Shown here piece after piece: positions 1-47,840 of a stretch of 64,000 nt of DNA (position 1 is its first letter; the number at the start of each line of letters is the position of its first letter). Source of the DNA: Ectocarpus siliculosus (lineage: Eukaryota; Sar; Phaeophyceae; Ectocarpales; Ectocarpaceae). Where the stretch lies: positions 5,412,515-5,476,514 of the forward strand of contig FN649729.1 of assembly GCA_000310025.1 (NCBI GenBank). The letters run 5' to 3'. The notes under the pieces are model-generated. The model was not told where the DNA came from. It was given only the letters and a program-made list of their open reading frames with translations, and did no database searches. Both the position numbers and the translations under genes were made by a program.

Positions 1-51
1 GACAGCACGCGTTTCCTGACTGGATGCCGGGGATCCCGTTGGAGCACACGT
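1..51 (-). CDS. Gene A Cys-rich module C14, cut by window edge
   Basis: First 51 nt of another Cys exon: acceptor CGGCAG|ACG, then [17 protein letters not shown]. The gene continues beyond the left edge. Confidence 0.85.
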
Positions 52-3000
52 CTGCCGGCAGAGACGAACAGCAACACACGAGGTAGCCAAGAGAGCGGCA
101 GCGTGAGACAATGCATGGTTTGCATCTTGTGGTGAGTTCAAATACGTCAACGACAGCCCAGATGAGCTCTGGGTCACGAACAAGACCTTCTTCATCAGCG
201 GTGGTACACACGTCGCCGATCTTTCGATGCATGCGTCGTCGGAAGAAGCGACCTTAGACAAGCCATTCCAATTCACCACAGCACGAACACGATTCCTAAA
301 TCCACCACGGCGGACGATGCTATGATGGAGAGGTAGACGGAAGCTATCAAGGGCTTGGGTCTACGACTACATCTGGACATCGGTACAAGGCAGAAAGAAA
401 TACACGAGTCAGGTAAGCAGCAACACAGGGCAACTCTGCGGCCGGTCAATCGAGGCAACGAATATAGGAAGTCCGCGGTAGACATCTCACCGGTGGCAGT
501 AGGCTCGGTGACAGGGGCGGTGGGCTCGGCGACAGGCGCAGTGGGCTCGGCCACAGGGGCAGTGGGCTCGCGAACGGGGGCAGTGGGCTCAGCGACAGGG
601 GCGGTGGGCTCAGCCACAGGTGCAGTAGGCCCGGCCACGGGGGCAGTGGGCATGGCGACCGGCGAAGGCGCAGGAGCGGAGCCTGCATCGCGAAACAGGT
701 ACGAGTGACAAAACGGGACCAACACGCATCACGGTTGGATCATGCAATGCAATTGGCTGGATCTGAAACATTGTTTCAGGCAGCAGTTCCTCGGCTGACA
801 AGGGCGGCACGGCCCATGGGTTGCTTGCGCCCGGGAGGGTGGAATGGGCACGTCCACACCAGCGACAAACTCTGCAGACACCGACATTACTTGACAACTC
901 GGACAAAACTGACGTGGCATGAACTAGTGTGTCGTGGTTTGGTAGAGCCGTCAACAAAGCACGTACTGTGCAACAAAGCCGTTAACACATTGCCTTACCG
1001 TCAACGACACACGGAGCCGCCATCGTAGCAGAGCAGAGCTCGCCGAAGTCTTCGATCTCGCTCTGGCAGCAGTAGTCCTCCCCGAGGCCGCCGCCGAACT
1101 CAGCACAGTCAGATCCGCCGCAGGCACCGCACTCCGCGAGACAGCACGCGTTTCCTGACTGGATACCGGGGATCCCGTTGGAGCACACGTCTGCCAGCGG
1201 CCATACAGAGCAACATCATACAAGGTGGCAACGTGAGATGTATCGTGCATAACGTGTTGGCACACAGCAACCTAGCACCTCGAGCGGAATTCCTGAGTCG
1301 GGAACCCGACTGTCTTCAGCAGAGTGCGGCTTGAGCGGTTTAAGGTGCCAACGCCACTACGTTCACTATCCGTAGAAGCAACTACTAACAGGTCGTCTCA
1401 ACCACCACTAAGTAGCACCGACAGGACTGCCGAAGAACCCACAAAGGCAGACGGTGCCGTGACGGACAGAGGGTAGATGGCTCGTGTCTAGTCTATGGGT
1501 TTACCCCTCGGTGCAAGGCAGAGAGCAACACATGAGCGGAAACTCCCGGGCATGTCTGCCGCCTGCCAATCGCGTTAACGAACGTGGAAGTTCGTGACGA
1601 TATCTCACCGGCGGGGGCCGTAGGCTCAGCGACAGGTGCGGTGGGCTCTCGAACGGGGGCAGTGGGCTCGGCGACAGGCGCAGTGGGCTCAGCGACCGGT
1701 GCAGTCGGCTCGGCAACAGGCGCAGTAGGTTCGGCGACAGGGGCGGTGGGCTCGGCCACAGGCGCAGTGGGCATGGCCACCGGCGAAGGCGCAGGGGCGG
1801 AGGCTGCATCGCGAAACAGGTACGAGTAACGACAATGAGGAAAGGGTTTGTACGGATATACCGCGCGACTACTGGCTTTCACCGCCAATTTATCGTGTTT
1901 GGACTTTGAATCTACGACTGATACACCGGTCGCAGAGGGTGTAGAGCAAGTCTACGCGAAGACTGGTCTGGCGGTACATGCAGGGATCTTGCGACGACTC
2001 AACCTAAAAAACGAACGGTTAACAGTCGGCGACGGAAAAGCAGGCAATGGTGCAGTAGGGTGACAAAAAGCAATAAAACCGGTGTCGAAGGTCTTACCGT
2101 CTACGACACATGGCGCCTCAAGCTTGATGGAGCAGAGCTCGCCGTATTCCTCGATGTCGCTCTCGCAGCAGTTGTCCGCCCCGAGGCCTCCCCCGAACTC
2201 ATCACAGTCAGACCCGCCGCATTCACCGCAGTCCGCGAGACAGCAAGAGACCCCGGACTGGATGCCGGGGATTCCGTTCGAGCACACGTCTGGTGGCAGA
2301 GACAAATTGCGACGTCACACGGCAGCAGGAAAGAGGGGGACGGCGTGAAATGATGCATCGCGTAAAACGTACGGAGATGCGTTACACAACACCATCGGCA
2401 CGGCAGTGAATCGGGTGCAAGACGGCAGTCAGCTTTATACGGTTGGAGCGGGTACGACACCAAGATTGATTGCATGTTAAACGCCGAAGGACGCACCAGC
2501 TGTCAACAAGCCGTCACAACTACATATGTACCGCCAGCAACAAGGACCCTCGAGAAAGACTACCACCCCGGACGAAGCTTAAGGCGAAATGGGGATGTCC
2601 CAAGCATTATCATCAACAGATGAGACGCACCAGTATTTGAGTAACAACGACGGTGACGCGACCATTCCAATTATCCAATGATCAGTTCGGCGCTCGCACA
2701 AGTCACATGTCTAACGTCTTCGCCTGGTTGATGTCCGCCATAAAGGTACGTCGTCTCACCGGTGGGTGCAGTAGGCTCCGTGACCGGTGCAGTTGTCTCG
2801 GCGACCGGTGCAGTGGGCTCGGCGACAGGTGCGGTAGGCTCGGCGACCGGGGCAGGTGTAAGGACGACGTCTGCCTCGCCAAGCCGATCGCAACGCCGGG
2901 ACAGGAATACGCGTCAGGGTTGCCAGACGGTCGATATACTGCGGACTCGAAACAGGATTGTAGTACACACTGCAGTCGACCTTCTATACACCAGCCTCGG

Positions 3001-6000
3001 GTCTGATTGTTAGCCTTCCCGGGTCGGGTCTTCGTTTCCCAGAGACCAAAAACAACCGAGCTGCTTCATGAGAAACAGAAACACATAGCCACCGCTACAA
3101 AGTGCTGTAGAGAGAACAAAAAAAAATTCACCCGACCCTTACTGGATCTACAACGCGTTTTGTGTCATGCTGCCGTCGTATCTCAGACTGCGAAAGACCC
3201 GAAAAACACCAGGACGATTTAGACAAACATGGGGCAGAATGCATGCATGACTAACCGTCGTCGAAGTCGAAAGAGAAGGACATCGAGACGGGCGATGGGG
3301 TCGGGGCTGGCGCGTCTGGGTATTTGGGCGGGAGTGAGAGAGCGGAGACAAGGCGGGAAAAACGAGAAGGCAGGGAGGTAATCAACGGTAAGAGTGACGC
3401 ACGTTGGCATTATTCTCGTCTCCCTGGTCGGACAGAGACGGGTTGGTAGTAGGCGATGCGGCAGACAAGGACAGAAGCGCCCATCCCATTGAGGACCTCC
3501 TAGCTGACACCACATGTCAAATATTTCGACCACAACCTCGCAGCACCAAGCGAGCCGAAAACAAACACGAACCGTAGTAACCGATGGTAAGGAAAAGAGC
3601 ATGTTTCGACCAACAGGCAGAATGGAAACGGCACTCATTCTCGCCGTGTCGGTTTTTCGCTTTTCTTTCCTAGTGAAATGAAATAAAACCATTCGAGGGA
3701 AAATCTGATACACATGAAAAAGCAGTAGCTGCCGCAGCGGTACACGAAACGGCGGTGGCGCTAACTATCGCCACGTACCGGCGAGTACACAGGGGGCCTC
3801 CCCCGTCTCGCTGCACGACGCTCCGGTGGAGAGGATGTCGGAGGAGCAGCAGGACTCGGGGCCGTAGTCGGGCATTCCCACGGTGGAGCATCCAGAACCG
3901 CCGCACATTGTACAGCCAGTCGGGCAACAGACCGCGCCGTCCGAGGACTCGATTCCGGGGATGCCGGTGCTGCAAGTTGGCTCTGTCGTGGGTGGGGTGG
4001 GGTAGGGGGAGGGGTGATGGGTGCTGTGTCGCAGGCCGCGAAGGAAGCGTGAGGACCATTTAGGTGAGTCCACACGCCGGCAAGCCCACCACTACAATCG
4101 ACTGCAATATGACACCTGTGGTGGGGGGATGCAACATCCGAAACGGGATAACGGCAACGACTGTCGTACAACTGGGACAAAGAGACGATAAAAACGGTTT
4201 CGGAAGGGATAGGGGTGAGTGAAAGACATCGGCAAGCGGGGCGGAGACTTGGATGCAGTGAGTATGAAGCGAGAGGTCATCACAGTACGCCTTAGGTAAG
4301 GGGTTGTGTACTACATTCTCGCTATCTCGTTGTCACTTATCTACCGTGTAAGCGCGCGAAAGGCGTCTCACCGGTGGGTGCAGTAGGCTCAGCGACAGGT
4401 GCCGTGGGCTCAGCGACAGGCGCAGTGGGCTCGGCGACAGGGGCGGTGGGCATGGCGACCGGCGAAGGCGCAGGGGCGGAGTCTGAATCATCCGAAGCGT
4501 ACGACAAAAAAAAAAAAATGAGGAACGGATGTTAGGGATGTATCGGACATTGGCTGGCTTGCAGGACATTTTCATCAATAACGGAGATTTGTGTAGGAGA
4601 AGAATAGCCACTACATCGGTTGCAGAAGGTATGCCAATCCTCGGCGAATGCGGTACATGCTGGAATCGCGCGACGACAAACACAGAAACTGACTGTAAAT
4701 AGTCGGCGACGAAAACGAGGTACACATCTGTGTCGCAGGATGCCCATACTACAACGTCGTCGAAACCGACAACACCGCCGTCAATCTTCTCACCATCGAT
4801 GTAGCACGGCGCCTCGAGCGCGATGGAGCAGGGCTCGCCGTGTTCCACAATGTCGCTCACGCAGCAGTTGTCCGCCCCGAGGCCTCCACCGAACTCATCA
4901 CAGTCCGACCCGCCGCATGCACCGCACTCCGCGAGACAGCACGCGTTGTCCGACTGGATACCGGGGATCCCGTTCGAGCATGTGTCTGGCAGCAGAAACA
5001 CACACCGCGCCATGTGGTAGCAAGAGTGCAACAAGTGAGGGTCCTGTAGAAAAATGGTCTTACGTCCCAGGACATCATGAGCACGGCACTCGAGTGGGGT
5101 ACCGGCAGCGTGCGGTTGGAACAGCCAAAAGCTGCCGAGCTCAGTGTCGTCTACCCGAAACACCGCCTGTCGCAGACCAGGAGTACCTCCTGCGACAGAA
5201 ACCTCAAGCCCCCATCACCACCAACAAAGCTACCACGGGTGGGGATATCACAGGTAAAATCGCCACCGAATGAACTTCATTGGCAGCGACAAAGAATGGG
5301 AGCATTCTGCTGATCACAACATGCCAAGAACTTGGTGCATCCATCATGAAAACGCGTGACGGGTCTCTCACCCGTGGGGGCGGTAGGCTCGGTGACAGGT
5401 GCAGTGGGCTCGGCGACTGGTGCGGTAGGCTCTCGAACCGGTGCAGTAGGCTCGGCCACCGGAGCAGTGGGCATGGTGACCGGCGAAGGCGCAGGCGCGG
5501 AGTCTGCATCACGAACACGTTCGAGCGACAACAATGATGAACGGGTGTCAACGACTTGTCGTGCGATGGCGTGCTTTCACCACCAGTTCATCCATGTTCA
5601 ACGACTGATAGAGACTGCAAGCGGATCAAGAAGGTGGAGCAAGCCAACGCCACTACGGGTAATCTGTCTGGTTATAAAAGCAGGGACTGTGCGACAACAC
5701 ACCCAAGAAAACGAACGCAAAACCAGTCGGCGACAAGCAGGCAATGGTGCAGTAGGGTGACAAAAAGCAATAAAACCGCTGTCGAATGTCTCACCATCTA
5801 CGACACACGGCGCCTCGAGCTTGATGGAGCAGAGCTCGCCGTATTCCTCGATGTTGCTCTGGCAGCAGTTGTCCGCCCCGAGACCGTCGCCGTACTCAGC
5901 ACAGTCAGACCCGCCGCATTCACCGCACTCCGCGAGACAGCACGAGACCCCAGACTGGATGCCGGGGATTCCGTTCGAGCACACGTCTGGTGGCAGAGAC

Positions 6001-9000
6001 AAATTGCGACGTCACACGGCAGCAGGAAAGAGAGGGACGGCGTGAAATGATAAATGATGCATCGCGTATAATGAAGGTACTGGGTAGAGAGAGATCGGAA
6101 CGGTTTTTATGTGAAGACAACAACAACGTATCGAGATGAACCATGGGTACGGCAGTCAGTCGGGTGCAAGACGGCTTTCAGCTTTGTATGGTTGGAGCGG
6201 GAAAGAAACCGAGATTTACTGCACGTTTAACGCCGATGGAAGCACCCGCTGTCGACTAGCCGTCACAACTACTGCCAGCGACAAGGGCCCTCGAGAAAGC
6301 CTACCACGCGCACCGCGGACGAAGGTACCGCGACATGGGGATGCCGCAAGCACTATCATCAATCCATGTACTATTGCAACAGTGACGGTGGCGCAAGAAC
6401 GGGACCATGCTTGATCAACTCGGTGCTAGCACAAGTCCTACATCTTCGCCTGGAAGTTGTTCACCATACGGGAACGTCATCTCACCGGTGGGTGCGGTAG
6501 GCTCGGCGACCGGTGCTGTAGGCTCAGCCACAGGCGCGGTGGGCTCGGCGACAGGTGCGGTAGGTTCGGCGACAGGCGCAGTGGGCTCGGCGACAGGCGA
6601 AGGCGCCGGCGATGAGTCTGCGGTGGCGAACAGGTCGTAGCAACATTGGGGCACGAGGTCAAGGATATATCGTACGCTGCTTGACATACGCACACCTTGT
6701 CATTGTTCGGCGTTCGTGTCGGGTGACCACCAACGAGAGCAGGCTCAAAAACCAGACAAACATTAGACTCGATATAACCGTCACATGCAGGAATCGTGCG
6801 ACGATACGCAGAAAACAGACATACGGACAGTCGGCGACGACAAGCAGGCACCTGTTCAGCGACGAAAACCGACACCGTTATCAAGAGTTCTCACCGTCGA
6901 TGTAGCACGGTGCCGCGAGCGCGATGGAGCAGAGCTCGCCGTGTTCCACGATGTCGCTCACGCAGCAGTTGTCCGCCCCGAGGCCTCCACCGAACTCATC
7001 ACAGTCCGATCCGCCGCACGCACCGCACTCCGCGAGACAGCACGCGTTTCCTGTCTGTATACCGGGGATCCCGTTGGAGCACGTCTCTGCCGGAAGGGAA
7101 ACACAGCAAGGTCATTGCAAAGAAAGCGGCGGCGTGGAAGTGATGCATCGTGTAGAAAACGTTGAGACAATCATTTTTGGCGACAACGGCGGGAAGTGAG
7201 AGGCCATTCCATTGCGCTAGGACACGGCCATGTCTGCCCTCTGATCCACGGAAAAGCGGTTCTTACCGGTGGGTGCAGTGGGCTCGGTCACAGGTGCAGT
7301 AGGCTCAGCAACAGGCGCAGTAGGCTCGGCAACAGGCGCGGTTGGCTCGCGAACCGGGGCAGTAGGCTCAGCGACAGGTGCGGTGGGCTCGACGACGGGG
7401 GCAGTGGGCTCAGCGACAGGGGCAGTGGGCTCGGCGACCGGCGAAGGCGCAGGAGCGGAGTCTGCAGTTGGGAAAAGGTGTTCGCAACAGCGAGTTCACG
7501 AACGTCAGGCGTTATACCTTCGTCCCGCTCTCTGGTGTGAACAGGTGGATCGCCACAGAACCATGTCTACAACTTGCGCCAACGAACCGTGACGAAAGCA
7601 GTTTGTGAAAAATAAACGAAGCGATGACGATTACTGGCACATCGGATCGTCCCACGATACACACGAACATACACTATCAACAGTCGCAACAAGTACGCAG
7701 ATGTGGCGAAGTACGACAAAACTCTATGTGGAACGGTCGAAACGGACGAAATCCTACAACGTTATCAAGAGGTCTCACCGTCGATGTAACACGGCGCCTC
7801 GAGCGCGATGGAGCAGAGCTCGCCGTGTTCCACGATGTCGCTCACGCAGCAGTTGTCGGCCCCGAGGCCTCCACCGAACTCATCACAGTCCGATCCGCCG
7901 CACGCACCGCACTCCGCGAGACAACACGCGTTTCCTGACTGGATACCGGGGAACCCGTTGGAGCACATGTCTGGCGGTAAAGATTAGTAGCAACACGACA
8001 CGCGGAAGCAAAGAGGGCGGCAACGTGAGACATGCATGCTCGCTGAGACATACCACGGAAGATCATGAGCAAGGCACCGTGTCAGCAACGAGACGGCCTA
8101 ACGCAGCGTGCGGTCAAAGCGGTGGCACGGTGGCAACCTTGATTTTTACATTCGAGGACTGACTGGTGCAAAGTAGCCGTCAAATATTCAACAGCCCAAG
8201 ACGGCCGACGAAGCTACCTCTGATGGGGAGGGATGGCACAACCAACATCGCCAGCAGTCACTGACGGCACAAGGAACAAGCTTCTAATGATGAGGCCAAA
8301 CGTCAACACGGGCAAGTCTGCTGGCTACTCGTGGACTCCACCACGGAAACGCAACGGATTTCTCACCGGTGGGTGCGGTAGGCTCGGCGACTGGAGCAGT
8401 GGGCTCGGCCACAGGTGCAGTGGGCTCTCGAACCGGTGCAGTAGGCTCGGCGACCGGCGAAGGCGCAGGGGCGGAGTCTGCATTGGCGAACATGGGGCCG
8501 CAACGGAAAGCCAAACGAGTCAGGATATACGCGGGCCCCGACTGTCTTGCACGGCACTCAGCCAATTGACCAATGTCGGCAATTAGCACCGACGACTAGC
8601 GACGAGGATGCCCAAGCCTTCACGCGGCGACCAGCAGGCAACTGCTGTACAGCAGGATCGAATAGAAAATGTCGGAACGGGAAAAACGGGACACTGCTAA
8701 CTAACGTCTCACCGTCTACGACACAAGGCGCCTGGAGTGTGATGGAGCAAAGCTCGCCGTTCTCCTCGATGTTACCCTCGCAGCAGTTGTCCGCGCCGAG
8801 ACCGCCTCCGAACTCATCACAGCCAGATCCGCCGCATGCAACGCACTCCGCGAGACAGCAAGCGAACCCTGACTGGACACCGGGAATGCCGTTGGAGCAC
8901 ACGTCTGCCGGCAGAGGCACGTAGCAACACCACACGGCAGTGGGAGAGAGGGGGGCGAAGTGAAGTGATGCGTGGTGTACAGCGTCATCAGAAATGCCAC

Positions 9001-12000
9001 TTAGTCGGGTACAAGACGGCCTTCAGGAGCGCGCGGTTGGAGCGGTGGTGGTGGTACATGACACCAAGGTCGAGATGTCCAAAGAAGAGATCGCAAAATA
9101 GTCTTTACGTCTACCGCCAGCAACAACAACCCTCAAGAGACCTTACTAACGCCAGGACAAGGCTGCCACAGGTGGAGATGGTGGCAAATATTGTCGACAG
9201 AAACAGATCAAGTTCAAGGAACACCGACGGTGACACAAGGAAGAAATTGTTCCATTCATCAGGACAGCGCTGCCATATAGCCAAGGCTCGCTCCTGATTG
9301 TTGACCCATCCACCATGAAATCGCGCGACAGATGTCTCACCGGTGGGTGCCGTGGGCTCGGCAGTAGGCTCGGCAGTAGGCTCGGCAGTAGGCTCAGGAG
9401 TGGGCTCTGGCGTAGGCTCTGGAGTTGGCTCGGGAGTTGGCTCGACAACCGGCGAAGGCGCAGGGGCGGCGTCTGCATCGCCGAACATGAGATATTGTAC
9501 AGTGATGACGATGAGCCACAAAAGTCAGGGAAACGTCGTAGAATATCAACGATTGGATTTCGCGTCGACGACTATGTTGCGACGCTAACTCAAGTTGACC
9601 AAGCGATATGTAGCGAATACGTCAGGGATCATGCAAAGACACGAAAAACTACACAGTCGGCGACGGATGCAGGCACATGTGTCGTAGCATGACAATCCAC
9701 AGTGCAATGCCGACGAAAATCAACATTGCCATAAAGAGGCTCACCGTCGATGTAGCACGGCGCCTCGAGCGCGATGGAGCACAGCTCGCCATGTTCCACG
9801 ATGTCACTCTCGCAGCAGTTGTCCGCCCCGAGGCCTCCACCGAACTCATCGCAGTCCGATCCACCGCATGCACCGCACTCGGCGAGACAACACGCGTTTC
9901 CTGACTGGATACCGGGGAACCCGTTGGAGCACATACCTGCCGGCAGGGAGAGACGTACAGCGAGAACGGGCGAGTTTCAGCATCGCGATGAATGTGTCTG
10001 GAGAGTTGAAGAACAATCATGAGCACGGCTCTTGAGCCTGGGAAAAAGGCGACCTTCAGCAACGTGAGGTTGGAGCACCCATCATACACCGAGAATACTG
10101 TATTGTCCGTCGGTCCGACAGCGTGTTCGCGGCAAACCGCTCGCTACAACTACCACCAGCAAGTAGAGAACCCGAGAGAGCCTACCACCACGCACCAAGC
10201 TACCACGGGTGGGGACGGCACAAGCAAAACCGCCAGCGCAGGACGTTCATTGAAGGTGACGACCGTGAAAATAAAAGAGCATTCCACTGATCCCTGTTTG
10301 CTGGTGTCGGCCCCATCATGTGCAAGTGTCACGTCTGATTGTTGAGTCGTCAACCATGAAATCACCCGACTGATTTCTCACCGGTGGGCTCGGTAGGCTC
10401 GGCAGTAGGCTCGGCAGTAGGCTCGGCAGTAGGCTCGGCAGTAGGCTCGGCAGTAGGCTCAGGTGTAGGCTCCGGAGTTGGCTCAGCAGTGGGCTCGGCA
10501 GTAGGCTCGGGAGTAGGCTCGGCAGTAGGCTCGGCAGTAGGCTCGGGAGTAGGCTCAGGTGTAGGCTCCGGAGTTGGCTCGGGAGTCGGCTCTGCAGTGC
10601 ACGCAAGGCGACCAGCGAAGGCGCAGGGGCGGAATATGCATCGCCAAACAAGTAGCAGCATGGACAAGTCACGGAAGTCAGGGGAATGTCGGGCCCTAGC
10701 TAGCTTGCAAAGTAGCATAATGGGGACATGAACGTTCCGGATTTCGCGTCGAAGACTACATAACGACGTGTAGCGACGTGACACCAACGTGACAAGGCTA
10801 TAGCGTTTACATGAAGGGATCGTGCGACGACACCAAAAACAAGAAAAAACGGGAAACATGTGGGGGACTACAAAAATTCCCTCTGCCGCAACACGGCAAA
10901 CTACGGTTCACCGCCGTCGCAACCGACGGAATCCAACACCGTTATCAAGAGTTTCACCGTCGATGTAGCACGGCGCCTCTAGTGCAATGGAGCAAAGCTC
11001 GCCGTGTTCCACAATGTCACTCTCGCAGCAGTTTTCCGCCCCGAGACCGCCGCCCAACGCATCGCAGTCCGATCCGCCGCATCCACCGCATTCCGCGAGA
11101 CAGCACGCGTTTCCAGACTGGATACCAGGGAACCCGTTGGAGCACGTGTCTGGCCGCAGGCAGGGACACGGGGCAACAACATGCGGCAGCAGCAACAAGA
11201 AGAGCGGCAACGTGAGACGATGCATCGTGTTGAGTTTTTTTATTACTCAGGGCTCATGTCCATAGGGTACTTTGCGGTGGGTACGACACGGTCTTCACCA
11301 AGATGTAAGTCTGAGACGGCTTATATTGTTGAGCCATATACCATGAAATCACCCGACTGATTTCTCACCGGTGGGCTCGGTAGGCTCGGGAGTAGGCTCG
11401 GGAGTAGGCTCGGCGGTAGGCTCGGCGGTAGGCTCGGCGGTAGGCTCGGGAGTAGGCTCGGCGGTGGGCTCGGGAGTAGGCTCAGCGGTGGGCTCGGGAG
11501 TAGGCTCGGCGGTAGGCTCGGGAGTAGGCTCAGGAGTAGGCTCGGGCGCAGGCTCTGGGGCACCACAAAACAAATAGAGGCACCGACGAGCCACTGAAGT
11601 CAGCGATATATGGTCCGTTGGCTTGCTTGCAAAGTTATATCACCACTATATCCGTTGTTGGATTTCGCTTCGTGAATTTCATTGCGACGTGGCATCAACG
11701 TGACTAGGCAATAGATGGTTCGTGCGACAACACAAGAAACAAAAAACACATACTACAGCACAAGTCGGCAACGACGAAGACAAACGTTCCCTTCTGTGTC
11801 GCTGCATGAAAAGCAGCAACACAACGCTGTCGTAACCGACAAAATACCAACAACGGTATCAAAAGTCTCACCTTCCAGGTAGCACGGCGCCTCGAGCGCG
11901 ATGGAGCAGAGCTCGCCGCGTTCCACGATGTCGCTCTCGCAGCAGTTGTCCGCCCCTAGACCTCCGCCGAGCGCGTCACAGTCCGATCCGCCGCACCCAC

Positions 12001-15000
12001 CGCACTCCGCGAGACAGCAAGCGTTTCCTGACTGGATACCGGGGAACCCGTTGGAGCACACGTCTAGTCACACAGACAAGAGGGAAACGACATGCGGCAG
12101 CAGCGACAAGGAGAGCGGCAACGTGAGATGATGCACCGTGTTATGTTTGGTGAGACGCTCGCGAGCTGAATAAGATGCAAGGTACGTACTCTGCGTCATG
12201 TACGAGACGGCCTTCAGCAAGATATGGTGTGGTTCCCCCCGTCAGATGCCGAGCATATAATCGTCGGTCCGACGCAGCGTCCACTAAATCAGCCGTTACA
12301 ACGACCGATAGCAACAAGAACTCTTGCGTGGGACGAAGCTACCACGGGTGGGGATGGCACAAGCAATATCGCTAGCGCAAGACTTTCATTCACGGTGATG
12401 ACAGCGCAAGGAAGCGACAGAGTTCCTACCGGTGGGCGCAGTCGGCTCGGCAGTCGGTTCGGCAGTCGGTTCGGCAGTCGGCTCGGCAGTAGGTTCAGGA
12501 GTAGGCTCAGGCGTAGGTTCGGGCGTAGGCTCGGCAGTCGGCTCGGCAGTCGGTTCGGCAGTCGGCTCGGCAGTCGGCTCGGCAGTAGGTTCAGGAGTAG
12601 GCTCAGGCGTAGGTTCGGGCGTAGGCTCGGCAGTCGGTTCGGGAGTAGGCTCCGGAGTTGGCTCGGGAGTGGGCTCCGGCGTAGGTTCTGGAGTAGGCTC
12701 TGCAATACGCCAAGGCCACCGGCGAAGGAACAGGGGCGGAATATGCATCACCAAACAAGTGGCGGCACCGACGAGCCACGAAAACAAGGGAAATATCGTG
12801 CCCTCCCGAGCTTGCCAAGTACAATCACCGAAACATCCATGTTCCGGATTTCGCGTCCAAGACTACATAGCGACGTGGAACGAAGGTGACGAAGCGACCA
12901 CAAATACATGCAGGGATCGTGCCACGACACGAACAAGAAACAAAGAAACTGGGAACAGTTGGCGACGACAAGCAGGCACCTGTATCACTGCATGATGCTC
13001 CATGAATTGCTGCAGTACACAACGCCGTCCGAACCGACGAAAACCAACAACGTTATCAAGAGGTCTCACCTTCCAAGTAGCACGGCGCCTCGAGGGCGAC
13101 GGAGCAGAGCTCGCCGTGTTCCACGATGTCGCTCTCGCAGCAGTTCTCCGCACCGAGACCGCCGCCGAGCGCATCGCAGTCCGATCCGCCGCATCCGCCG
13201 CACTCCGCGAGACAGCACGCGTTCCCTGACTCGATACCGGGGAACCCGTTGGAGCACACGTCTGGCGGCAGGCAGAGACACAAAGCAACAAGGCGAGTTT
13301 TTTCATCATCACGAACGCGTTTGGACAATCACGACCAAGGCTCTCGGGTCTAGGGTTTTAAAGGGAGACCCCGTCAGGTGCCGAGAAAATGGTCGTGGGT
13401 CCCAAACAGGGTCCGCTGCCAGTCGCCACAACAACCAACAACCACCAGCAAGCAGCAAGCAGCAAGCAGCAAGCAGCAAGCAGACCCCCCAAAAGAGCCT
13501 ACCCCCAAGCACAAGGCTACCTCGGGTGGGGACGGCACAAGCAATACCGCCAGATGATAAATTTCATTGAAAGCAAGCAAGACTTCGACTTCAGATGACG
13601 ACGGTGCATGGAAAAAAAGCTTCCACTGATCAGGTCAGCTTTAACCAACAACGGGCACGTCTTACTTCTGATTGTTTAGTCGTCAACCATGAAATTACGC
13701 GACAGTTTTCTCACCGGTGGGCTCGGTAGGCTCGGGCGTAGGCTCTGGAGTAGGCTCCGGAGTCGGCTCAGCGGTAGGCTCTGCAGTAGGTTCGGCAGTA
13801 GGTTCCGCAGTAGGTTCCGCAGTAGGCTCGGGCGTAGGTTCCGGAGTTGGCTCGGGCGTAGGCTCGGGCGTAGGCTCTGGAGTAGGCTCCGGAGTCGGCT
13901 CAGCGGTAGGCTCTGCAGTAGGTTCGGCAGTAGGTTCCGCAGTTGGCTCGGGCGTAGGTTCCGCAGTTGGCTCGGGCGTAGGCTCGGGCGTAGGCTCTGG
14001 AGTCGGCTCAGGGGTAGGCTCTGCAGTAGGTTCCGCAGTTGGCTCGGGCGTAGGTTCCGGAGTTGGCTCGGGCGTAGGCTCGGGAGTGGGCTCAGGAGTG
14101 GGCTCTGGGGTAGGCAAGGCGACCAGCGAAGGCGCAGGGGCGTATCACGACACGAGTGGCAGCACCGACGAACCACGGAAGTCAGTAAAATATTGTGCGC
14201 TGGCGGGCGTACACAAGTGTTATCTAAATCAATGGTCGGATTTCGCGTGGACGACTCTATTTGCGACGTGGTAGCAAGTTGGCCGAGCGATAGGGGAATG
14301 ATGCGAGACACCCACCCACAAACAAAAAACTACGAAGTTGGTGACGAAAAAACGCCCCAGTGCCGCAGGGTGAGAAACTTCATTACAACGCCGTCGGAAA
14401 CGACAAAACACCAACAACCCCGTTAATCTCACCCTCGACGTAGCACGGTGCCTCGCGCGCGATGGAGCAGAGCTCGCCGTGTTCCACGATGTGGCTCTCG
14501 CAGCAGTTGTCCGCGCCGAGACCGCCGCCGAGCGCATCGCAGTCCGATCCTCCGCATCCGCCGCACTCCGCGAGACAGCAAGCGTTTCCTGACTGGATGC
14601 CGGGGAACCCGTTGGAGCACACGACTAGTCATAGAGACACGGGGAAACGACATGCGGCGGCAGTACCAGAGGGCGGAAAGGTGAGGCGATGCATCCTGTC
14701 AGGTGGTTTACACGCTCAAGAGCTAATACGCAACGTACTTAGCGTCGTGTACGAGACGGCCTTCACCAACATGTGGTTGGAGCACCCATCAGATGCCCCA
14801 GTATTTTGTCTGCCCGAAGCCGGCCGGCTGCAATCTGCCCACCACGAATACCGCCAGCAACAAGAGTTCTCGAGAGAGACTACCACCGCCCACGAAGCTA
14901 ACACGGGTGGGGAAGGCACAAGCGAAATTGGGAGCGGAAAACTGCTGCTGACGAGGACGACGACGCCAGGGAGAGCCCATTCCACTGATCAGGTCAGCCC

Positions 15001-18000
15001 TTACAACATAGCACGCAAGTCTGACGTCTTATTTTGTTGAGTCATGTGCCACTTAATCACGCGACAGATTTCTCACCGGTGGGGTCTGCAGTAGGCTCGG
15101 GAGTAGGCTCTGGAGTAGGCTCTGGGGTTGGCTCTGGCGTAGGCTCTGGCGTAGGCTCTGGAGTTGACCCTATAGTTGACCCGGCGATCAAAAAGTAGTC
15201 ATTAGGATAAGGCACGGAAAACAGCGATACATTGTGCGCTGGCTGGCTCACACAGTGGTAATTCATAAAACAATATGTACGGTAGTTATTCAATGCTCGG
15301 AGTTGGCGTCAACGCCTAGAGACGAGAGCGGCTGCAGAAGGAAGACCAAGCCTTACGGACCGGCGTTCGTGCCACGACAGGCAGGTACAGGACGGCAAAC
15401 AACAACAACGTCGTCAGGGGACGGAAGAGAAACGTTGCTACAAGTATCCAAGGCTCACCGCCAATGACGCAAGGGGCCGATCCAACGTCGTCGCACATCT
15501 GGCCGTTGTCGACGATGGTGTCCGCACAGCATTCAACCTCGAGCTCTGGCCCAGTCTCGCACTCGCACTCGCACTACAAGTTAGAGTTGAGATGCGGAGG
15601 GGGGGGGGGTGGGTAGCTTTTGGCGCCTGCGAGAGGAAAATCAAGAATCGCATCTTCTTGAGACACCATGGTACACATTTAACCTCTCGGGGGGTCCTCT
15701 CTGGCACAACATCCTTACGATGTTTGTATGTATGGCAACTTGTTTTCCCGTCGAAATCGATCGCAATAACGCGGTCTCGTTTGACTTCGCTTGATAACCA
15801 CTGCTCCCCTCTAACGACATGGAATCGTGATCGTTTTTTTCACTGACGATCTTGGTGCATCAAACCTCTGCCCCTTTGTTAAATTCTCTGCATGGGCACG
15901 GCTTGCCCTCGTCCATGCACCCTCGTCTTCCCCTTTCGTCAAGCCAAGGTTCCGCACGCTTTCAGTTCCCATCACCTCTGACCCGGAGTCTGAGGAGCTA
16001 CTAGAGCGGAGCGCACGCCGCGTGTTGCAGTCGCAGTACTCCTCGTAATCGTCATCTGAGTCGTTGGAGTAGTCGTGCTCGTAGGTGAGGCGGCGACGGC
16101 GCCTTCGGGTCCCGCAGATGGTGTCATTGTCTGACGAGTCCCGCCCGCCAAGGCGGCGCCTGTCGCACCCGGTAGAGCAGCTTCCGCACTCGGAGGGGCA
16201 GCAAGCCTTGCCGTCGGAGGACTCGACGCCTGTAACGCCGTTGCTGCACATGCTTCCTCCTGCACATCGTTAGACGCATGGAACGGAGCGGTCGCAGCAC
16301 ACCGTCGCGGGGGGGCGTACTCTTTATGTTTTGCATGCCTTAGCGGCAAGACCGTTGACCACACGTCCTCGAGAGGACAGAGCATTGTCCATCTCTCATG
16401 CCCCAGGACACAGCTAAGCAGGAAGGAACGTATGTGTGTGGGGGGGGATGGAGCTCCTTGAGAAAAACAGTATTCTTGCAAGCCAAAGCGGGCGGCTGCC
16501 GGGCACGTACCGTCGTTGGAGTTGGAGTCGTCGCTCGAGCCACTGTCCCCGCCATGGTTCCAGGTCAGACGACGACTAGCGTCAGCATCGTTACCTGTAG
16601 GACCGTCCAGCTGTACGCTCTTGATCCAGTTGGCAGGTGAGAGATGACGTCGGAGTTTTTCGCGAAAGGTCTCTGGGGTGCCAGCGGCCTGAGCAAGAAT
16701 AGAGAACAATGCACGCCGGGAAAGACAGGATGGGGAAGACCGCGGTGCGTGCACACCAAAGGATTCAGTGTTAGAGAAAAGTTGACATGACGGGTACATT
16801 GTACATGGAAACGCGCTGTCATTCTCCAGGTTTGCCCTTATTTGGAGGAAACCACGCGTACGTGCATGTAACTGGCAGACATCGGCAGAGCGGTATCCGA
16901 CAACACTGACGACGAGGACGTTGCGATAACCACCAGGTAGACAAGGGCCCCGCCGGGAATCTCGTTTAAAAAAACAAAATGAAAAATACCGCTGGTGAAA
17001 CGCCTTCAATGAGGTCCATTCTTGATCGACCAAACTACAGTATAATATGGATACGCACTTATTTATGCTCTATTTCTCTTACTACACACGCTCAACGTGG
17101 AACAATGGGTCAGGTGCAGGACAGAAAGAAAGCCGGTACGTAAGACGTGAGCAGGCCGCAACGCGGACTTCATCGAAACGTTCGTGAAACATTCTGCATG
17201 CCCAGAAATAAATATAGGTGGACAGAAGAAATAACGACAAAATCGATCATATATATACAAATATATTATAATAGCACCAAATCTAACAATGCATAAAATT
17301 ATTGAGTGACACACAATGAATTTGCACTTTCATTGTCGATGAGTTTTTTTTTTGTCCCTGACGGGCGACGACCTTGTCTAGTATCGTTGCGTCCGGGCGT
17401 CAGAGGCGGGTATCAAAACGGCCCCCGCTTCTTGTCCGTTGTTTTGGTTCGGATGAACGCCGTACATAACAACACGTGCGTGATGCACTATAAGTCCAAG
17501 TAGAGTATGCATATTTCATCCACGAGCGCGTTCAAATGCTCCGTACGGTGCATGTGATGAGTTGCTCCTAAATCACGAAAAAAAAGGAAGGTTTGTTCGT
17601 CGAAGCATGTGATGAGTTGCTCCTAAATCACGAAAAAAAGTAGTTCAAGTTGTACACAGGCCACGTTGTGGTTTCGCCCCGCTCAAGCAAAAGCGTGAGA
17701 CAAAATTGTCCGCTCAGGGAATCTGCAGGGAAAGGAAGATGTGAGGTTACCCGAGATTTACACCTTATTTCCTTAGACGAGGCCCGTCCTGCCGCAAATG
17801 TAGCGCACTACACTGCGTTCGTTCGCGGATCTTACTCCCTATCACACGATCATCACGGCACGGTTTACTGACCGACTGGAATCCAACCGTTCAGCCCTTG
17901 ATTCAACTGCAATACTTATCACATTTATTCACTCGGAAAAACTTTCCCGCATCCAGTGCTCCTACTACGGAGGAACAATCTAGGGTGAAAATCCGTTGGA

Positions 18001-18484
18001 ACTTGGAAACGACCACATCCGACCCACCGCCTTGGGTGTGGGACAGAATTTAATGTCGGAGTTATGTATTCGCAATTCGCAAACGATTCTACAGCAGCAG
18101 GAGTAGAGTAGTATCCGTGAGGTGCGCGGGACAACGGTGGTTATCCCGAACCGATGTCGTTCCAGCGCAATCTGTAGAGAGGAGAAAAAAACAGGTGTGT
18201 ATGTAGTGTTGTCCAGGATTTTTCAGAACTACTTGCTGACGGGCTACCCTGTGTTCATACATACAGTAAATCCTCCCGGCAGACTGAAGATACAACCGGT
18301 CGAATGTACGAATCTGCTGTGCGCCTACAAACCGTGCTGCCCTCCCTTCCACCAAACATCATACCTGCTCGTTCGCATCTCGGGCAGCAGCAGCAGACTG
18401 CGAGGCGTTGGCATCATTCTTCCCGAGGACGAATGGCGCTACAACCCCCAGCAGCAAGAGGCTACTTGCTTTATGGCGCACCAT
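1..18484 (-). CDS. Gene A: giant modular secreted Cys-rich/Pro-Thr-rich protein (3' end beyond window)
   Basis: A single minus-strand gene of 4 N-terminal exons followed by alternating linker (L1-L14) and Cys-rich (C1-C14) exons, read from 18,484 down to the window edge. Every exon has GT..AG borders. The first exons join in phase 0, 1, 0 and all later junctions are phase 1, so the 5,716 coding nt in the window stay in one frame (about 1,905 residues). The product begins with a signal peptide and has no internal membrane helix, so it is probably secreted; an extracellular-matrix or wall role is inference. The ten-Cys domain resembles CC..C..CGG..C repeats that I recall from uncharacterised stramenopile secreted proteins; no function is known to me. 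Introns (about 0.2-1.7 kb) contain no other gene. Modules repeat about every 0.9-1.7 kb. The 3' end is not in the window. Confidence 0.85.
491..682 (-). CDS. Gene A linker L14 (APVAEPT type)
   Basis: 64 codons: [40 protein letters not shown] units, ending TATG at donor CCG|GTGAGA. Confidence 0.87.
999..1190 (-). CDS. Gene A Cys-rich module C13
   Basis: 192 nt, phase 1-1, ten cysteines. Variants: [34 protein letters not shown]; donor ACG|GTAAGG. Confidence 0.87.
1609..1803 (-). CDS. Gene A linker L13 (APVAEPT type)
   Basis: 65 codons: [19 protein letters not shown] units with one APVREPT, ending APAG at donor CCG|GTGAGA. Confidence 0.88.
2098..2289 (-). CDS. Gene A Cys-rich module C12
   Basis: 192 nt, phase 1-1, ten cysteines. 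[32 protein letters not shown] at donor ACG|GTAAGA. Close twin of C9, flanking introns included. Confidence 0.88.
2760..2870 (-). CDS. Gene A linker L12 (APVAEPT type)
   Basis: 37 codons. Unusual start [12 protein letters not shown] (acceptor GGCAG|ACGT), then [21 protein letters not shown], ending APTG at CCG|GTGAGA. Confidence 0.83.
3779..3982 (-). CDS. Gene A Cys-rich module C11, divergent
   Basis: 204 nt, phase 1-1, still ten cysteines but with 14 rather than 12 residues before CC and 12 rather than 11 before the second CC. Starts [20 protein letters not shown] and has [12 protein letters not shown] where other copies have Gly-rich loops; ends PCVLAG at donor CCG|GTACGT. ESSDG and the x14 spacing match exon 3, suggesting an older lineage. 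The flanking introns lack the shared module sequence. Confidence 0.82.
4372..4482 (-). CDS. Gene A linker L11 (APVAEPT type)
   Basis: 37 codons: [19 protein letters not shown] units, ending APTG. Confidence 0.87.
4794..4985 (-). CDS. Gene A Cys-rich module C10
   Basis: 192 nt, phase 1-1, ten cysteines. Variants: GIQSDNACC and a Pro in HGEPC; ends PCYIDG at donor ATG|GTGAGA. Confidence 0.88.
5372..5503 (-). CDS. Gene A linker L10 (APVAEPT type)
   Basis: 44 codons: [33 protein letters not shown] units, ending APTG. Confidence 0.88.
5795..5986 (-). CDS. Gene A Cys-rich module C9
   Basis: 192 nt, phase 1-1, ten cysteines. [41 protein letters not shown]. The exon and flanking introns are close copies of the C12 module, so this is a recent duplication. 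Confidence 0.88.
6486..6617 (-). CDS. Gene A linker L9 (APVAEPT type)
   Basis: 44 codons: [12 protein letters not shown] then uniform APVAEPT units, ending APTG. Confidence 0.88.
6895..7086 (-). CDS. Gene A Cys-rich module C8
   Basis: 192 nt, phase 1-1, ten cysteines. Acceptor GGCAG|AGACG gives [17 protein letters not shown]; ends PCYIDG. Confidence 0.88.
7267..7461 (-). CDS. Gene A linker L8 (APVAEPT type)
   Basis: 65 codons of APVAEPT units with single APVVEPT and APVREPT variants, ending APTG at donor CCG|GTAAGA. Confidence 0.88.
7779..7970 (-). CDS. Gene A Cys-rich module C7
   Basis: 192 nt, phase 1-1; a typical copy: [43 protein letters not shown]. Confidence 0.9.
8367..8477 (-). CDS. 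Gene A linker L7 (APVAEPT type)
   Basis: 37 codons: [12 protein letters not shown], then [14 protein letters not shown] units and APTG at donor CCG|GTGAGA. Confidence 0.87.
8713..8904 (-). CDS. Gene A Cys-rich module C6
   Basis: 192 nt, phase 1-1, ten cysteines. Variants: [34 protein letters not shown], ending PCVVDG. Confidence 0.88.
9341..9472 (-). CDS. Gene A linker L6, hybrid type
   Basis: 44 codons. Starts [12 protein letters not shown] like the C-terminal-side linkers, then switches to TPEP/TAEP repeats like the N-terminal-side ones, ending TAPTG. This is the transition between the two linker classes. Confidence 0.87.
9745..9936 (-). CDS. Gene A Cys-rich module C5
   Basis: 192 nt, phase 1-1, ten cysteines. 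First codon changed (acceptor GGCAG|GTATG gives GMCSN); contains [11 protein letters not shown] and ends PCYIDG. Confidence 0.87.
10382..10591 (-). CDS. Gene A linker L5 (TPEP/TAEP type)
   Basis: 70 codons of EPTP/EPTA ending TEPTG. Acceptor CTGCAG|AGCC. The older linker start (SAPAPS type, about 10,601-10,640) is still visible upstream but is out of frame and therefore intronic. Confidence 0.83.
10958..11149 (-). CDS. Gene A Cys-rich module C4
   Basis: 192 nt, phase 1-1, ten cysteines. Starts [16 protein letters not shown], with [11 protein letters not shown] and ending PCYIDG. Confidence 0.88.
11369..11554 (-). CDS. Gene A linker L4 (TPEP/TAEP type)
   Basis: 62 codons beginning [10 protein letters not shown] and ending TEPTG; acceptor CCCCAG|AGCC, donor CCG|GTGAGA. 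Confidence 0.85.
11872..12063 (-). CDS. Gene A Cys-rich module C3
   Basis: 192 nt, phase 1-1, ten cysteines. Contains [11 protein letters not shown] and VERGELC, and ends PCYLEG. Acceptor ACTAG|ACG. Confidence 0.88.
12430..12699 (-). CDS. Gene A linker L3 (TPEP/TAEP type)
   Basis: 90 codons of EPTP/EPTA repeats ending TAPTG; donor CCG|GTAGGA. Acceptor TTGCAG|AGCC. The intron side keeps a relic of the older linker start (ATATTCCGCCCC, about 12,710-12,748). Confidence 0.85.
13070..13261 (-). CDS. Gene A Cys-rich module C2
   Basis: 192 nt, phase 1-1, ten-Cys pattern intact. Starts [16 protein letters not shown], contains [11 protein letters not shown] and ends PCYLEG at donor AAG|GTGAGA. Confidence 0.88.
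13715..14104 (-). CDS. Gene A linker L2, longest linker
   Basis: 130 codons of TPEP/TAEP units, ending TEPTG. The DNA shows a higher-order repeat of about 120-140 bp in three copies, implying local expansion by slippage or unequal exchange. A relic of an older linker 5' end remains just outside the acceptor (about 14,115-14,150). Confidence 0.85.
14433..14624 (-). CDS. Gene A Cys-rich module C1
   Basis: 192 nt, phase 1-1, ten cysteines in the pattern C-x12-CC-x3-C-x2-C-x4-C-x11-CC-x10-C-x7-C. Variant features: [11 protein letters not shown], a His in [13 protein letters not shown], and the ending PCYVEG. The acceptor is TAG rather than CAG. Confidence 0.85.
15077..15169 (-). CDS. Gene A linker L1 (TPEP type)
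   Basis: 31 codons, phase 1-1, repeats of TPEP ending ADPTG at the donor CCG|GTGAGA. The acceptor TATAG|GGTC is the least certain of the linker acceptors. Confidence 0.65.
15459..15573 (-). CDS. Gene A exon 4: second half of split Cys domain
   Basis: 115 nt, phase 0 in and phase 1 out (acceptor TTGTAG, donor GCG|GTGAGC). Encodes CECECE, then [14 protein letters not shown] and SAPCVIG. This aligns with the [14 protein letters not shown] tail of the Cys exons. The matching gene B exon is 25,423-25,528. Confidence 0.8.
15976..16259 (-). CDS. Gene A exon 3: first half of split Cys domain with short acidic insert
   Basis: 284 nt, phase 1 in and phase 0 out. It opens with [18 protein letters not shown], matching the start of the Cys exons, continues through CPSEC-x2-C, then has an arginine run and an Asp/Ser/Tyr-rich insert ending YEEYCDC and a serine run. 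The donor is GAG|GTGATG. The second half of the domain lies in exon 4. The paralogous exon in gene B is 5.6 times longer because of SSKD repeats at the same place. Confidence 0.8.
16306..16360. mobile_element. Second copy of the 54-bp element, in gene A intron 2
   Basis: GGGGGGGCGTACTC, then TTTTGCATGCCTTAGCGG and AGACCGTTGACCACA, matching the element at 57.46 kb. No clear target duplication. Confidence 0.6.
16511..16688 (-). CDS. Gene A exon 2: conserved N-terminal segment
   Basis: 178 nt, phase 0 in and phase 1 out, acceptor CTCAG|GCC and donor ACG|GTACGT. Encodes a basic/amphipathic segment with the motif HLSPANW, then [11 protein letters not shown] and a Ser/Asp/Asn-rich tail. The gene B exon at 30,845-31,121 shares [16 protein letters not shown] and DADxxRRLxWN. 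I do not recognise the domain. Confidence 0.8.
17551..17639 (+). repeat. Direct repeat pair, 34 bp, in gene A intron 1
   Basis: CATGTGATGAGTTGCTCCTA followed by AATCACGAAAAAAA occurs at 17,551 and at 17,606, a period of 55 bp with no mismatch. Confidence 0.9.
18365..18484 (-). CDS. Gene A exon 1: signal peptide
   Basis: Forty codons from ATG at 18,484 to the donor CAG|GTATGA. The product has a basic start (MVRHK), a hydrophobic core ([15 protein letters not shown]) and then an Ala/Asn-rich stretch ending DANEQ: a classical secretory signal. The paralogue at 33,287 has the same [13 protein letters not shown] core, which supports this start. A splice-acceptor-like CAG ends 6 nt upstream of the ATG in both paralogues. 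Ends in phase 0. Confidence 0.85.
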
Positions 18485-23248: not shown

Positions 23249-23440
23249 CGTCGATGTAGCACGGCGCCGCGAGTGCGATGGAGCAGAGCTCGCCGTATTC
23301 CTCGATGTCGCTCTCGCAGCACTTGTCCGCCCCGAGGCCTCCACCGAACTCACCACACCCGCGACCGCCGCATTCGCCGCACTCCGCGAGACAGCAAGAG
23401 ACCCCGGACTGGATACCGGGGAACCCGTTGGAGCACACGT
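23249..23440 (-). CDS. Gene B Cys-rich module b (last recognisable exon)
   Basis: 192 nt, phase 1-1, ten cysteines: [41 protein letters not shown] at donor ACG|GTGAGA. No further linker or Cys exon follows before the MAPEG-like remnant at 22.7 kb. Confidence 0.86.
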
Positions 23441-26400
23441 CTGGTGGCAGAGGTACAGATAGCAACATCACGCGGCAGCAGCGACAAAGAGAGGGGATGA
23501 TGTGAGACGATGCATCGCGTAGAGTGGTTGGGGTGCGCAAGAGCTGAGATGCAGGGCACTCTGCGTCGGCAACGAAGTGCCCTGCATCAGCTTGTGGTTG
23601 GAGAAGCCGTGCGCTGCCGAGCTGAGTATCGTCGGTCCGAAACAGCGCCTGCTGCACAACTACCACCAGCAACAAGAAACCCTGAGAGAGAGACACCACT
23701 GTGCACCATCGCGCACTGAGCTACCACGGGAGGGAATGGCACAAGGAACTATTGTCAGCAGATGGGTTTCATTGACATCGACGACGGTGCGACGAAGGGA
23801 GCATTCTACTGATCAGGTCAGCGCCAACCTTCCGTGTTATTGTTGACTCATCTACCATGAAAGCGTGAAATAGATTTCTCACCGGTGGGCTCGGTCACAG
23901 GGGCAACGGGCTCGGCGACCGGCGAAGGCGCAGGCGCGGAGGCTGCACAACGAAACACAGGTAGTGGAAACGTTGGGGAACGGAAGACGCGGGGTTACGC
24001 TGCGTTGGATGCCTTGCACCCTCAGATAAGAGATGGTCGGAGTATCGGATCAACGGCCTTGAACACAGTCATCGACGACAAGCAGGCACCTATGCACAGC
24101 AAGATGAAAATCAACAATGCGGTCGGAAGGGGCAAAGCAGGACACCGGTATTAAACATCAAGGTCTCACCGTCTACGACACATGGCGCCTCGAGTTTGAT
24201 AGAGCAGAGCTCGCCGAATTCCTCGATCTCGCCCTCGCAGCAGTTGTGCTCGCCAAGGCCGCCACCAAGCTCAGCGCAGCCAGACCCGCCGCATCCACCG
24301 CACTCCGCGAGACAGCAAGAGACCCCTGACTGGACGCCGGGGATCCCGTTGGAACACACGTCTGGAGGAAGAGACACATTACAACGTCGTGCGGCAGGTA
24401 GGAAAGATACCGACAGCGTGAAAATGATCCATCGTGTAGAATGTGTCAAGACCCGATATGAAACGCTGCTGTCATAAAGTTAACAAGACGACCTTTAGAA
24501 GGGCAGTGGTACGGTGCCAACCAAGACGGCCTTGAGAAGGGCGGTGGTACAGCGCCAAGCAACAGATCAGAGGAAGCGATGGCACAACCAACATCGTCAC
24601 GACATGTCTCTCACTGACGCCAAAGGGAAGACCACATTCAACTGATCGGGTCAGCGCTACCACGGCGGCGAATTCTGCCGCCTGATTGTTGACTCATCCG
24701 CCATGAAAGCACGCGACTGATTTTCTCACCGGTGGGCTCGGTCACAGGCGCAACGGGCTCAGCGACCGGCGTAGGCGCAGGGGCGTAGCCTGCATAACCG
24801 AACAAGTAGCGGCAACGATGAGCCACGGAAGTCAGGCATAGATCGTACGTTGACTGGCTTGCACAGTAACAAAGCAATGTTTGGAGCTCGCGTCAATGTT
24901 CAGCGACGAGAGAGGTCTCGGACGGGCGACCAAGCCGTAGCGACTACTGCACACATTGTTGCACTGTACAAACAAATTATCTAGAAAGAGGCGTACATAC
25001 AAGTTGGGCCATTGGACCATACTCTTACACCATGTCGCTAAATCAGCTCAAGATATCTTTGCTGGAGCTCTGTTTCCTGCAGGAGACAATGAACTCGGCA
25101 TGCAGGTCTACTAGATGAAGCATCACTTTAGAAAACCCCGAGTATCTCAAGCTCCATCACGTTAGTCGGGCTGAAGCAAGGCTATTCGATGAATTTCCGG
25201 CAAGCTCGTGGCTAGGTGGTTTATACTGAAAGGCATTTCAGAACAGTGCACCACGGATGGCCACAGCTAGCCAATCAGACGGGCGACACCAAAGAAGCCT
25301 TCCCGTATTCGACAAGCACCTGGAGCTGAAACCATTTCACAGCAACGCAGAACAAAACAAGAAAAAGCAAGGCAAGGCAAAAGGCTGTCACATCCGTGCT
25401 TTCGACGCTTCATGCACTGCACCTAGCACGCAGGGTGCCGATCCAAAGATGTCGCACATCTCGCCGTCTTCCACAATGGTGTCCGCGCAGCATTCGAGCT
25501 CGGGCTCGGGCTCGCACTCGCACTCGCACTGCAAGTAGGCGTTGGGATGGGGGGGGACGGGAACGAACGAGGTTGGCTACGTACGCGTCTTCGGTGGATG
25601 CGAGAACACCATCAAAACTCAATCCTTCGAGACGACAACCAATTGCTAACCCTCCCGAGACTTCACCACAGCGCAACACTTTCAAGGCATCCCTCGTCAT
25701 TATGTTCTGTTCGGTTGATGGGAACTTTGTTTCCTATACTGGCTACTGACCACTGCTCCTCTCTGATACATATATCTAGAAACCGTCATCATGCTTCTCA
25801 CTGGAGATACTGGAGTTCTGTTCTGCTTGCCTATCCCACACTGCGCATCTGAGCACTCCTGTAGGTTTACTACAGGCTGTCGAGACTTGTCTTGGGCTGC
25901 TGCCAGCGACCGCCTCACCTGGCCGTCACCAGAATCGGACGAATCAGAGGAGCCACCAGAGTCGGACGAATCAGAGGAGCCACCATAGCGAGGCGTGTAC
26001 CCGCCGGAGAGACTGCAGTCGCAGTATTCCTCGTAACCGTTGTCTCCATCGCCGGACCCGGAATCATCGGATGAGGAATCAGAACCCCGCCCACCGTCGT
26101 TCGAATCGGATGAGGAATCAGAGCCCCAGCCACCGCTTGATGAGTGATCGTTAGAGTCGGATGAAGAATCAGCGCCCCGGCCACCGCTTGATGAGTGATC
26201 GTCGGAGTCGGACGATCCGCTGTCGCTGCTGCCGCTGCCCCCCCACAGGTGACGACCGTGTTCGCAGTCGCACGACGCGTCACGCGAGTCGGAGGAAGAG
26301 CTACCGCCAGAGCGGAGCGCGCGGCGCTTGTATCCGGAGGGACCACAGTTGCAACCATCGCGGGAGTCGTCAGATGAATCCCTGGAAGAGGAGTCCTTGG

Positions 26401-47809: not shown

Positions 47810-47840
<31 letters not shown>

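Follow-up and report, generated by a model that had tools for sequence, protein, structure and literature searches.

In animals, matrix proteins carry cysteine-rich domains on symmetric exon modules of class 1-1, and in yeast the Wsc1 sensors have a WSC domain on their N-terminal side, followed by a stretch rich in serine and threonine, a transmembrane segment and a cytoplasmic tail. Chimeric proteins resembling arabinogalactan proteins (AGPs) are recognized by a signal peptide together with a backbone in which proline, alanine, serine and threonine (P/A/S/T) make up 50% or more, and by arabinogalactan linked to hydroxyproline; a 2016 study by Herve, cited in PMC8307928, is said to have described such AGP-like proteins from brown algae. 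Brown algae became complex multicellular organisms independently, and little is known of the proteins of their matrix; their wall proteins include WSC proteins and AGPs (PMC8307928). Repeats held in single, phase-locked exons are already published for this group. In the ROCO-LRR genes each leucine-rich repeat (LRR) is one exon of 72 bp in phase 2, attached to a GTPase, and diversifying selection has been reported (Teng 2024, PMC11378527, and Zambounis 2012 as cited there); the NB-ARC-TPR genes, built on tetratricopeptide repeats (TPR), likewise have a repeat per exon and tandem exon duplication (Teng 2023, according to PMC11378527). Here we describe a locus of Ectocarpus siliculosus in which exons for a domain with ten cysteines (Cys) alternate with linker exons. 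It lies in C4:5412515-5476514, a stretch of 64,000 nucleotides (nt) that we call the window, in a genome searched as 189 Mb on 492 contigs. We think it fairly probable that one giant gene occupies the locus and encodes a secreted protein of the extracellular matrix (cell wall), a multivalent cross-linker built like beads on a string and ended by a WSC domain.

The modelled gene is on the minus strand and runs from window position 18,484 down to -14,082 (C4:5398432-5430998), a length of 32.6 kb; it passes the left edge of the window by 14 kb, and 30 kb to the left were added for the full gene model. Its 58 exons splice into a frame that stays open over 3,650 residues with no stop, and 56 of the 57 introns are GT-AG, the remaining one being GC-AG. 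There are 26 ten-Cys modules, numbered here from the N-terminus, and 24 of them occupy one exon each (192 nt in 21 cases, and 186, 195 and 204 nt in the remaining three) while modules 1 and 25 are split by an intron. From Cys2 to Cys24 all 23 modules have phase 1-1 and 21 have 192 nt (the other two 195 and 204 nt), which amounts to one repeat per exon at fixed length and phase. The initial annotation had placed the array at window positions 1-15169 and described it as phase 1-1 exons, with at least 14 linkers alternating with 14 Cys exons, twelve of these 192 nt long and one 204 nt, and all linkers multiples of 3. The lengths are borne out by the 13 complete Cys exons of this gene inside the window (a 14th is cut by the left edge) and by 15 linker exons of 60-390 nt. 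The alternation holds except at one point, where the 204-nt module is followed by a linker exon of 60 nt and directly by another of 111 nt. Phase 1-1 applies to 50 of the 58 exons, and the two split modules are each spread over two exons. The module spacing, put at 0.9-1.7 kb with introns included, is 0.88-1.69 kb. The extent was underestimated: the array is present where it was placed, but that stretch is only 47% of the modelled gene, and with 14 of the 26 modules seen, the N-terminal exons, the split modules, the WSC domain and a paralogue at 33.3-23.2 kb were missed.

One concern with such a model is that phase was itself a filter in the initial selection of the Cys and linker exons. The splice sites of the 50 phase 1-1 exons were also chosen again with phase ignored, using simple hand-made scores for sites up to 45 nt from the modelled ones and leaving out the other eight exons. 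The modelled donor came out best in 50 of 50 cases and the modelled acceptor in 45 of 50, and phase was kept by 47 of the 50 acceptors. By this phase-free choice and by the open 58-exon frame we rejected chance as the origin of the array. We infer that the array is one gene, read into one transcript.

From the model we compute a protein of 360 kDa with 274 Cys and an isoelectric point (pI) of 4.05; its N-terminus, a signal peptide by inspection, makes it likely to be secreted. The 26 linker exons supply 1,653 residues, or 45% of the protein, and P/A/S/T account for 72% of them, compared with 50% or more for the AGP type, with the signal peptide that this definition also includes being judged by inspection only. 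These linkers are likely O-glycosylated, and minisatellites run through them in frame, with periods of 12, 21, 84 and 96 nt among others; in the linker after Cys15 a unit of 84 nt is present in 5.9 copies with a 99% match. Within the domain itself none of the ten Cys varies, either across the 22 modules compared (Cys2-24 without Cys12) or across eight diverse modules, and 28 of 63 positions are invariant across the 22. The modules are probably disulphide-bonded. At the C-terminal part a WSC domain (PF01822) matches with an E-value of 6.7e-14 and 52.3 bits, against a curated cut-off of 27.8. It was the only match of the Pfam scans, which covered five modules and the N-terminal and C-terminal parts, apart from one match far below its cut-off; none of the five modules matched any family even at an E-value of 10, and LRR, TPR, GTPase and ROC/NB-ARC had no match in these parts, the linkers and the other modules lying outside the scan. 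A search of the PDB with a profile of eight modules gave no credible solved relative, and we rejected its sole match, a hydrophobin at an E-value of 0.85, as chance-level. The WSC domain together with the proline- and threonine-rich chain points to a role in the cell-wall matrix, which would narrow the original remark that no function is described.

Parts of this array have duplicated recently. In self-comparison, units of exon and intron match over 791 nt at 96.3%, over 758 nt at 93.4% and over 2,154 aligned nt at 93.6% (at an offset of 1,090 nt), and nine of the 34 matches of at least 350 nt are at least 80% identical, some of them within linkers or in the neighbouring gene 2. The proposal of ongoing exon duplication stands for these places, where units of 0.76-2.15 kb with their introns are 93-96% identical. 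Introns are 98-99% identical on both sides of modules 22 and 23, and before the exon for modules 16 and 18 and for 23 and 24. Adjacent modules have a mean identity of 0.897 against 0.826 for shuffled orders, a value that none of 20,000 shuffles reached (the divergent 204-nt Cys12 was omitted and Cys11 and Cys13 were counted as neighbours). In a tree of 29 exons, of whose 25 inner branches only four are strong, neighbours cluster (Cys2-5, Cys15-19 and Cys23-24), and Cys21 and Cys22 are identical. Because the 204-nt type of this locus groups there with the 204-nt type of a paralogous locus on contig C11, the tree suggests that the standard and 204-nt types had already diverged before the two loci separated.

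As a whole the array is conserved by purifying selection and is not diversified. Over the 231 pairs of the same 22 modules, the mean proportion of synonymous differences (pS) is 0.37 and that of nonsynonymous differences (pN) 0.12, giving pN/pS of about 0.32. In 230 of the 231 pairs pN is below pS, a comparison that is pairwise and not site by site, and diversifying selection on the repeats was not seen in it. When codon differences are counted within module groups (raw pairwise counts), three groups have 16, 30 and 23 nonsynonymous against 73, 74 and 52 synonymous differences, respectively.

The ten-Cys domain is not confined to this gene. A one-module query against the genome gave at least 148 matches at an E-value of 10 or less and at least 121 at 0.001 or less, the latter forming at least 56 clusters spread over 34 contigs; eight of the clusters hold at least three matches. 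These counts are lower bounds from 150 scored candidates of 171, and some small contigs may be duplicate haplotypes. At seven of the 56 clusters, this gene included, a WSC match lies within 6 kb on the same strand, where about 0.003 per cluster would be expected under a crude uniform model. Four other loci, on contigs C207, C11, C26 and C21, were read by a script that sought phase 1-1 sites only. At C207:22500-32499 eight ten-Cys exons of 186-189 nt fit phase 1-1 in 10 kb, at intervals of about 1 kb; this array seems to be a different subtype that expanded separately. The C11 locus (C11:2180500-2190499) contains repeats of a unit of about 3.1 kb that pairs a 204-nt module with a standard one; three 204-nt modules alternate there with two of standard type (their exons may be 189 nt long, with a weak acceptor), and WSC matches lie in the same stretch. 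Proline-rich linkers are present at both loci. C26 has one module of 195 nt, and at C21 no phase 1-1 ten-Cys exon could be fitted. Beyond this genome, pattern matches in viral contigs and prokaryote genomes (71, 228 and 14 stretches) yielded no confirmed relative and a phage collection gave no match, in single-protein searches of non-eukaryote collections that reach close relatives only. The EsV-1-7 family is expanded in brown algae; in the genome studied here all 150 scored matches to it, of 880 candidates, pass the cut-off, and 14 control genomes have none. These matches indicate that the DNA is most likely from a brown alga and, with the inspected N-terminus, lend support to the secreted stramenopile protein first proposed. 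A wall-type gene of 26 modules without a Pfam match for its ten-Cys domain, and at least 56 clusters in one genome, make a concrete candidate family.

In the protein that we propose, the signal peptide would be followed by 26 ten-Cys beads spaced by glycosylated linkers rich in proline, alanine, threonine and glutamate, and the C-terminal WSC domain would probably bind wall polysaccharide. The number of modules would set both the length and the valency of the cross-linker. With almost all modules and linkers encoded by phase 1-1 exons, modules could be gained or lost without a break in frame, and unequal crossing-over in the introns and in the minisatellite-like linkers may be what adds and removes them. 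A more speculative idea, to which we give a low probability, is that the length of the wall protein is tuned by germline exon duplication, the number of modules varying between individuals and altering wall mechanics or acting as a surface tag of self and non-self. The near-identical units with introns included make exon duplication directly measurable between strains.

Several of our results weigh against this picture. The gene model was drawn from genomic sequence, not from RNA or protein. Comparison with the C11 paralogue, in which only the WSC part matched, gave no convincing exon 3' of the WSC domain, so the protein could still end in a membrane anchor. Structure prediction of the ten-Cys module from 15 sequences reached a mean predicted local distance difference test score (pLDDT) of 42 and a predicted template modelling score (pTM) of 0.21, and yielded no fold. 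Among the 30 most similar module pairs most intron pairs are only 0.63-0.79 identical, compared with 0.65 for shuffled introns; judged by this near-baseline identity, a few of the duplications are recent and most are old. In the youngest group, Cys21-24, there are 33 nonsynonymous and 28 synonymous codon differences, and since the former outnumber the latter these copies may be less constrained. Lastly, 49 of the 56 ten-Cys clusters showed no WSC match up to 6 kb away.

The same anatomy could belong to a recognition or defence protein whose duplicated modules diversify binding surfaces, as proposed for the brown-algal ROCO-LRR and NB-TPR genes. The genomic style, a repeat per exon in locked phase, is the same (PMC11378527), PR-1 proteins of brown algae carry WSC and lectin-type domains (PMC12879055), and the amino-acid changes in Cys21-24 are relatively many. 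Even so we regard this as unlikely, given that pN/pS over the modules is about 0.32 with pN below pS in all but one of the 231 pairs, that 28 of the 63 positions do not vary and that the parts scanned with Pfam have no LRR, TPR or GTPase. An array of several shorter tandem genes in place of one giant gene is easier to imagine while the model comes from the genome and not from a transcript; a junction could lie at 3.98-2.76 kb, where the 204-nt module is followed by the two linkers, and a clear separate paralogue adjoins the gene. Searches for the signal exon and for the WSC domain find one copy of each in the 32.6 kb, however, at the two ends (the gene may yet have an internal start of unrelated sequence), with 57 phase-compatible introns between them, and a division into separate genes seems improbable to us. 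The product might also be a secreted adhesive, for example of the holdfast or of spores, and not a component of the wall matrix. In general an adhesive would be well served by Cys-rich beads, an acidic chain and linkers that are probably disordered, but the WSC domain at the C-terminus suggests that the protein is kept within a polysaccharide matrix, and we see only a slim chance that this is the right explanation. The wall-matrix cross-linker thus remains the interpretation that we prefer.

Exon by exon, in window coordinates on the minus strand, the gene opens with exon 1 (18365..18484, phase 0-0), which has the start codon and the hydrophobic N-terminus and is 76% identical to a similar exon of the paralogue. 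Exon 2 (16511..16688, phase 0-1) encodes the N-terminal region and is 63% identical to the paralogue exon at 31112-30984. Exon 3 (15976..16259, phase 1-0), as modelled and compared with the paralogue, codes for half of module 1, the first, and for an insert in it rich in serine, aspartate and arginine; exon 4 (15459..15573, phase 0-1) codes for the second half. The alternating array begins at 13715..15169 with a linker (15169-15077), Cys2 (14624-14433) and a second linker (14104-13715). Cys3 to Cys9, of 192 nt each, occupy 6486..13261, where the gene model and self-comparison give linkers of (PTPE/PTAE)n and then (EPTAPVA)n. Cys10 and Cys11 (192 nt each) with their linkers follow at 4372..5986 and Cys12, the 204-nt subtype also found at C11, at 3779..3982; the two consecutive linkers (2760..3315) are at 3315-3256 and 2870-2760. 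The last part in the window (1..2289) consists of Cys13 (2289-2098), a linker (1803-1609), Cys14 (1190-999), a linker (682-491) and the edge-cut Cys15 (51 to -140, 192 nt). The complete Cys exons start at 14624, 13261, 12063, 11149, 9936, 8904, 7970, 7086, 5986, 4985, 3982 (the one of 204 nt), 2289 and 1190, and the linker exons measure 93, 390, 270, 186, 210, 132, 111, 195, 132, 132, 111, 60, 111, 195 and 192 nt. Beyond the left edge come Cys16-26 and the WSC domain, to at least -14082 (C4:5398432). The only GC-AG intron of the model follows the first half of module 25 (C4:5400817-5400901).

Upstream on the same strand lies the tandem paralogue, gene 2 (23249..33287), related by sequence comparison to the 5' part of the giant gene. 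It has a signal-peptide exon with its start codon at 33287, an N-terminal exon (N2) at 31112, a module 1 split at 27505 and 25486, two modules that are 192-nt exons (24361-24170 and 23440-23249) and short linkers. No WSC domain was found for it by tblastn within the 94 kb searched. Inside its first ten-Cys module there is a long (SSSKD)n stretch (26383-27298, minus strand) made of 204-nt units in 4.2 copies with a 90% match. On the plus strand, at about 43478-54911, two of six scanned open frames have matches, one to FG-GAP above the cut-off and another to a DEX1 beta-sandwich below it; the two are possibly one gene for a DEX1-like surface protein adjoining the wall-type gene.

When we compare the locus with known systems, it resembles the ROCO-LRR and NB-ARC-TPR genes in giving each repeat an exon of its own, at constant length and phase, and in duplicating exons in tandem. 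It differs from the ROCO-LRR genes in having a 192-nt phase-1 ten-Cys exon that alternates with linker exons, a WSC domain after these, and purifying selection. The AGP-like chimeric proteins share with it a P/A/S/T-rich backbone joined to other domains. A description of the ten-Cys domain was not found among the best-ranked matches in the literature, and judged by these matches the domain is new, as are the linker exons that alternate with it and the WSC domain at the end. With WSC-domain proteins it has in common a chain that combines WSC with a stretch rich in serine, threonine and proline; unlike in the yeast sensors, the WSC domain is C-terminal in the model and comes with 26 ten-Cys modules, and no transmembrane part was found in the known part, which ends in WSC. 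The exon modules of animal matrix proteins are alike in being symmetric, phase 1-1 and occupied by Cys-rich domains, whereas here the domain is another one, the lineage is another one, and separate linker exons stand between the modules.

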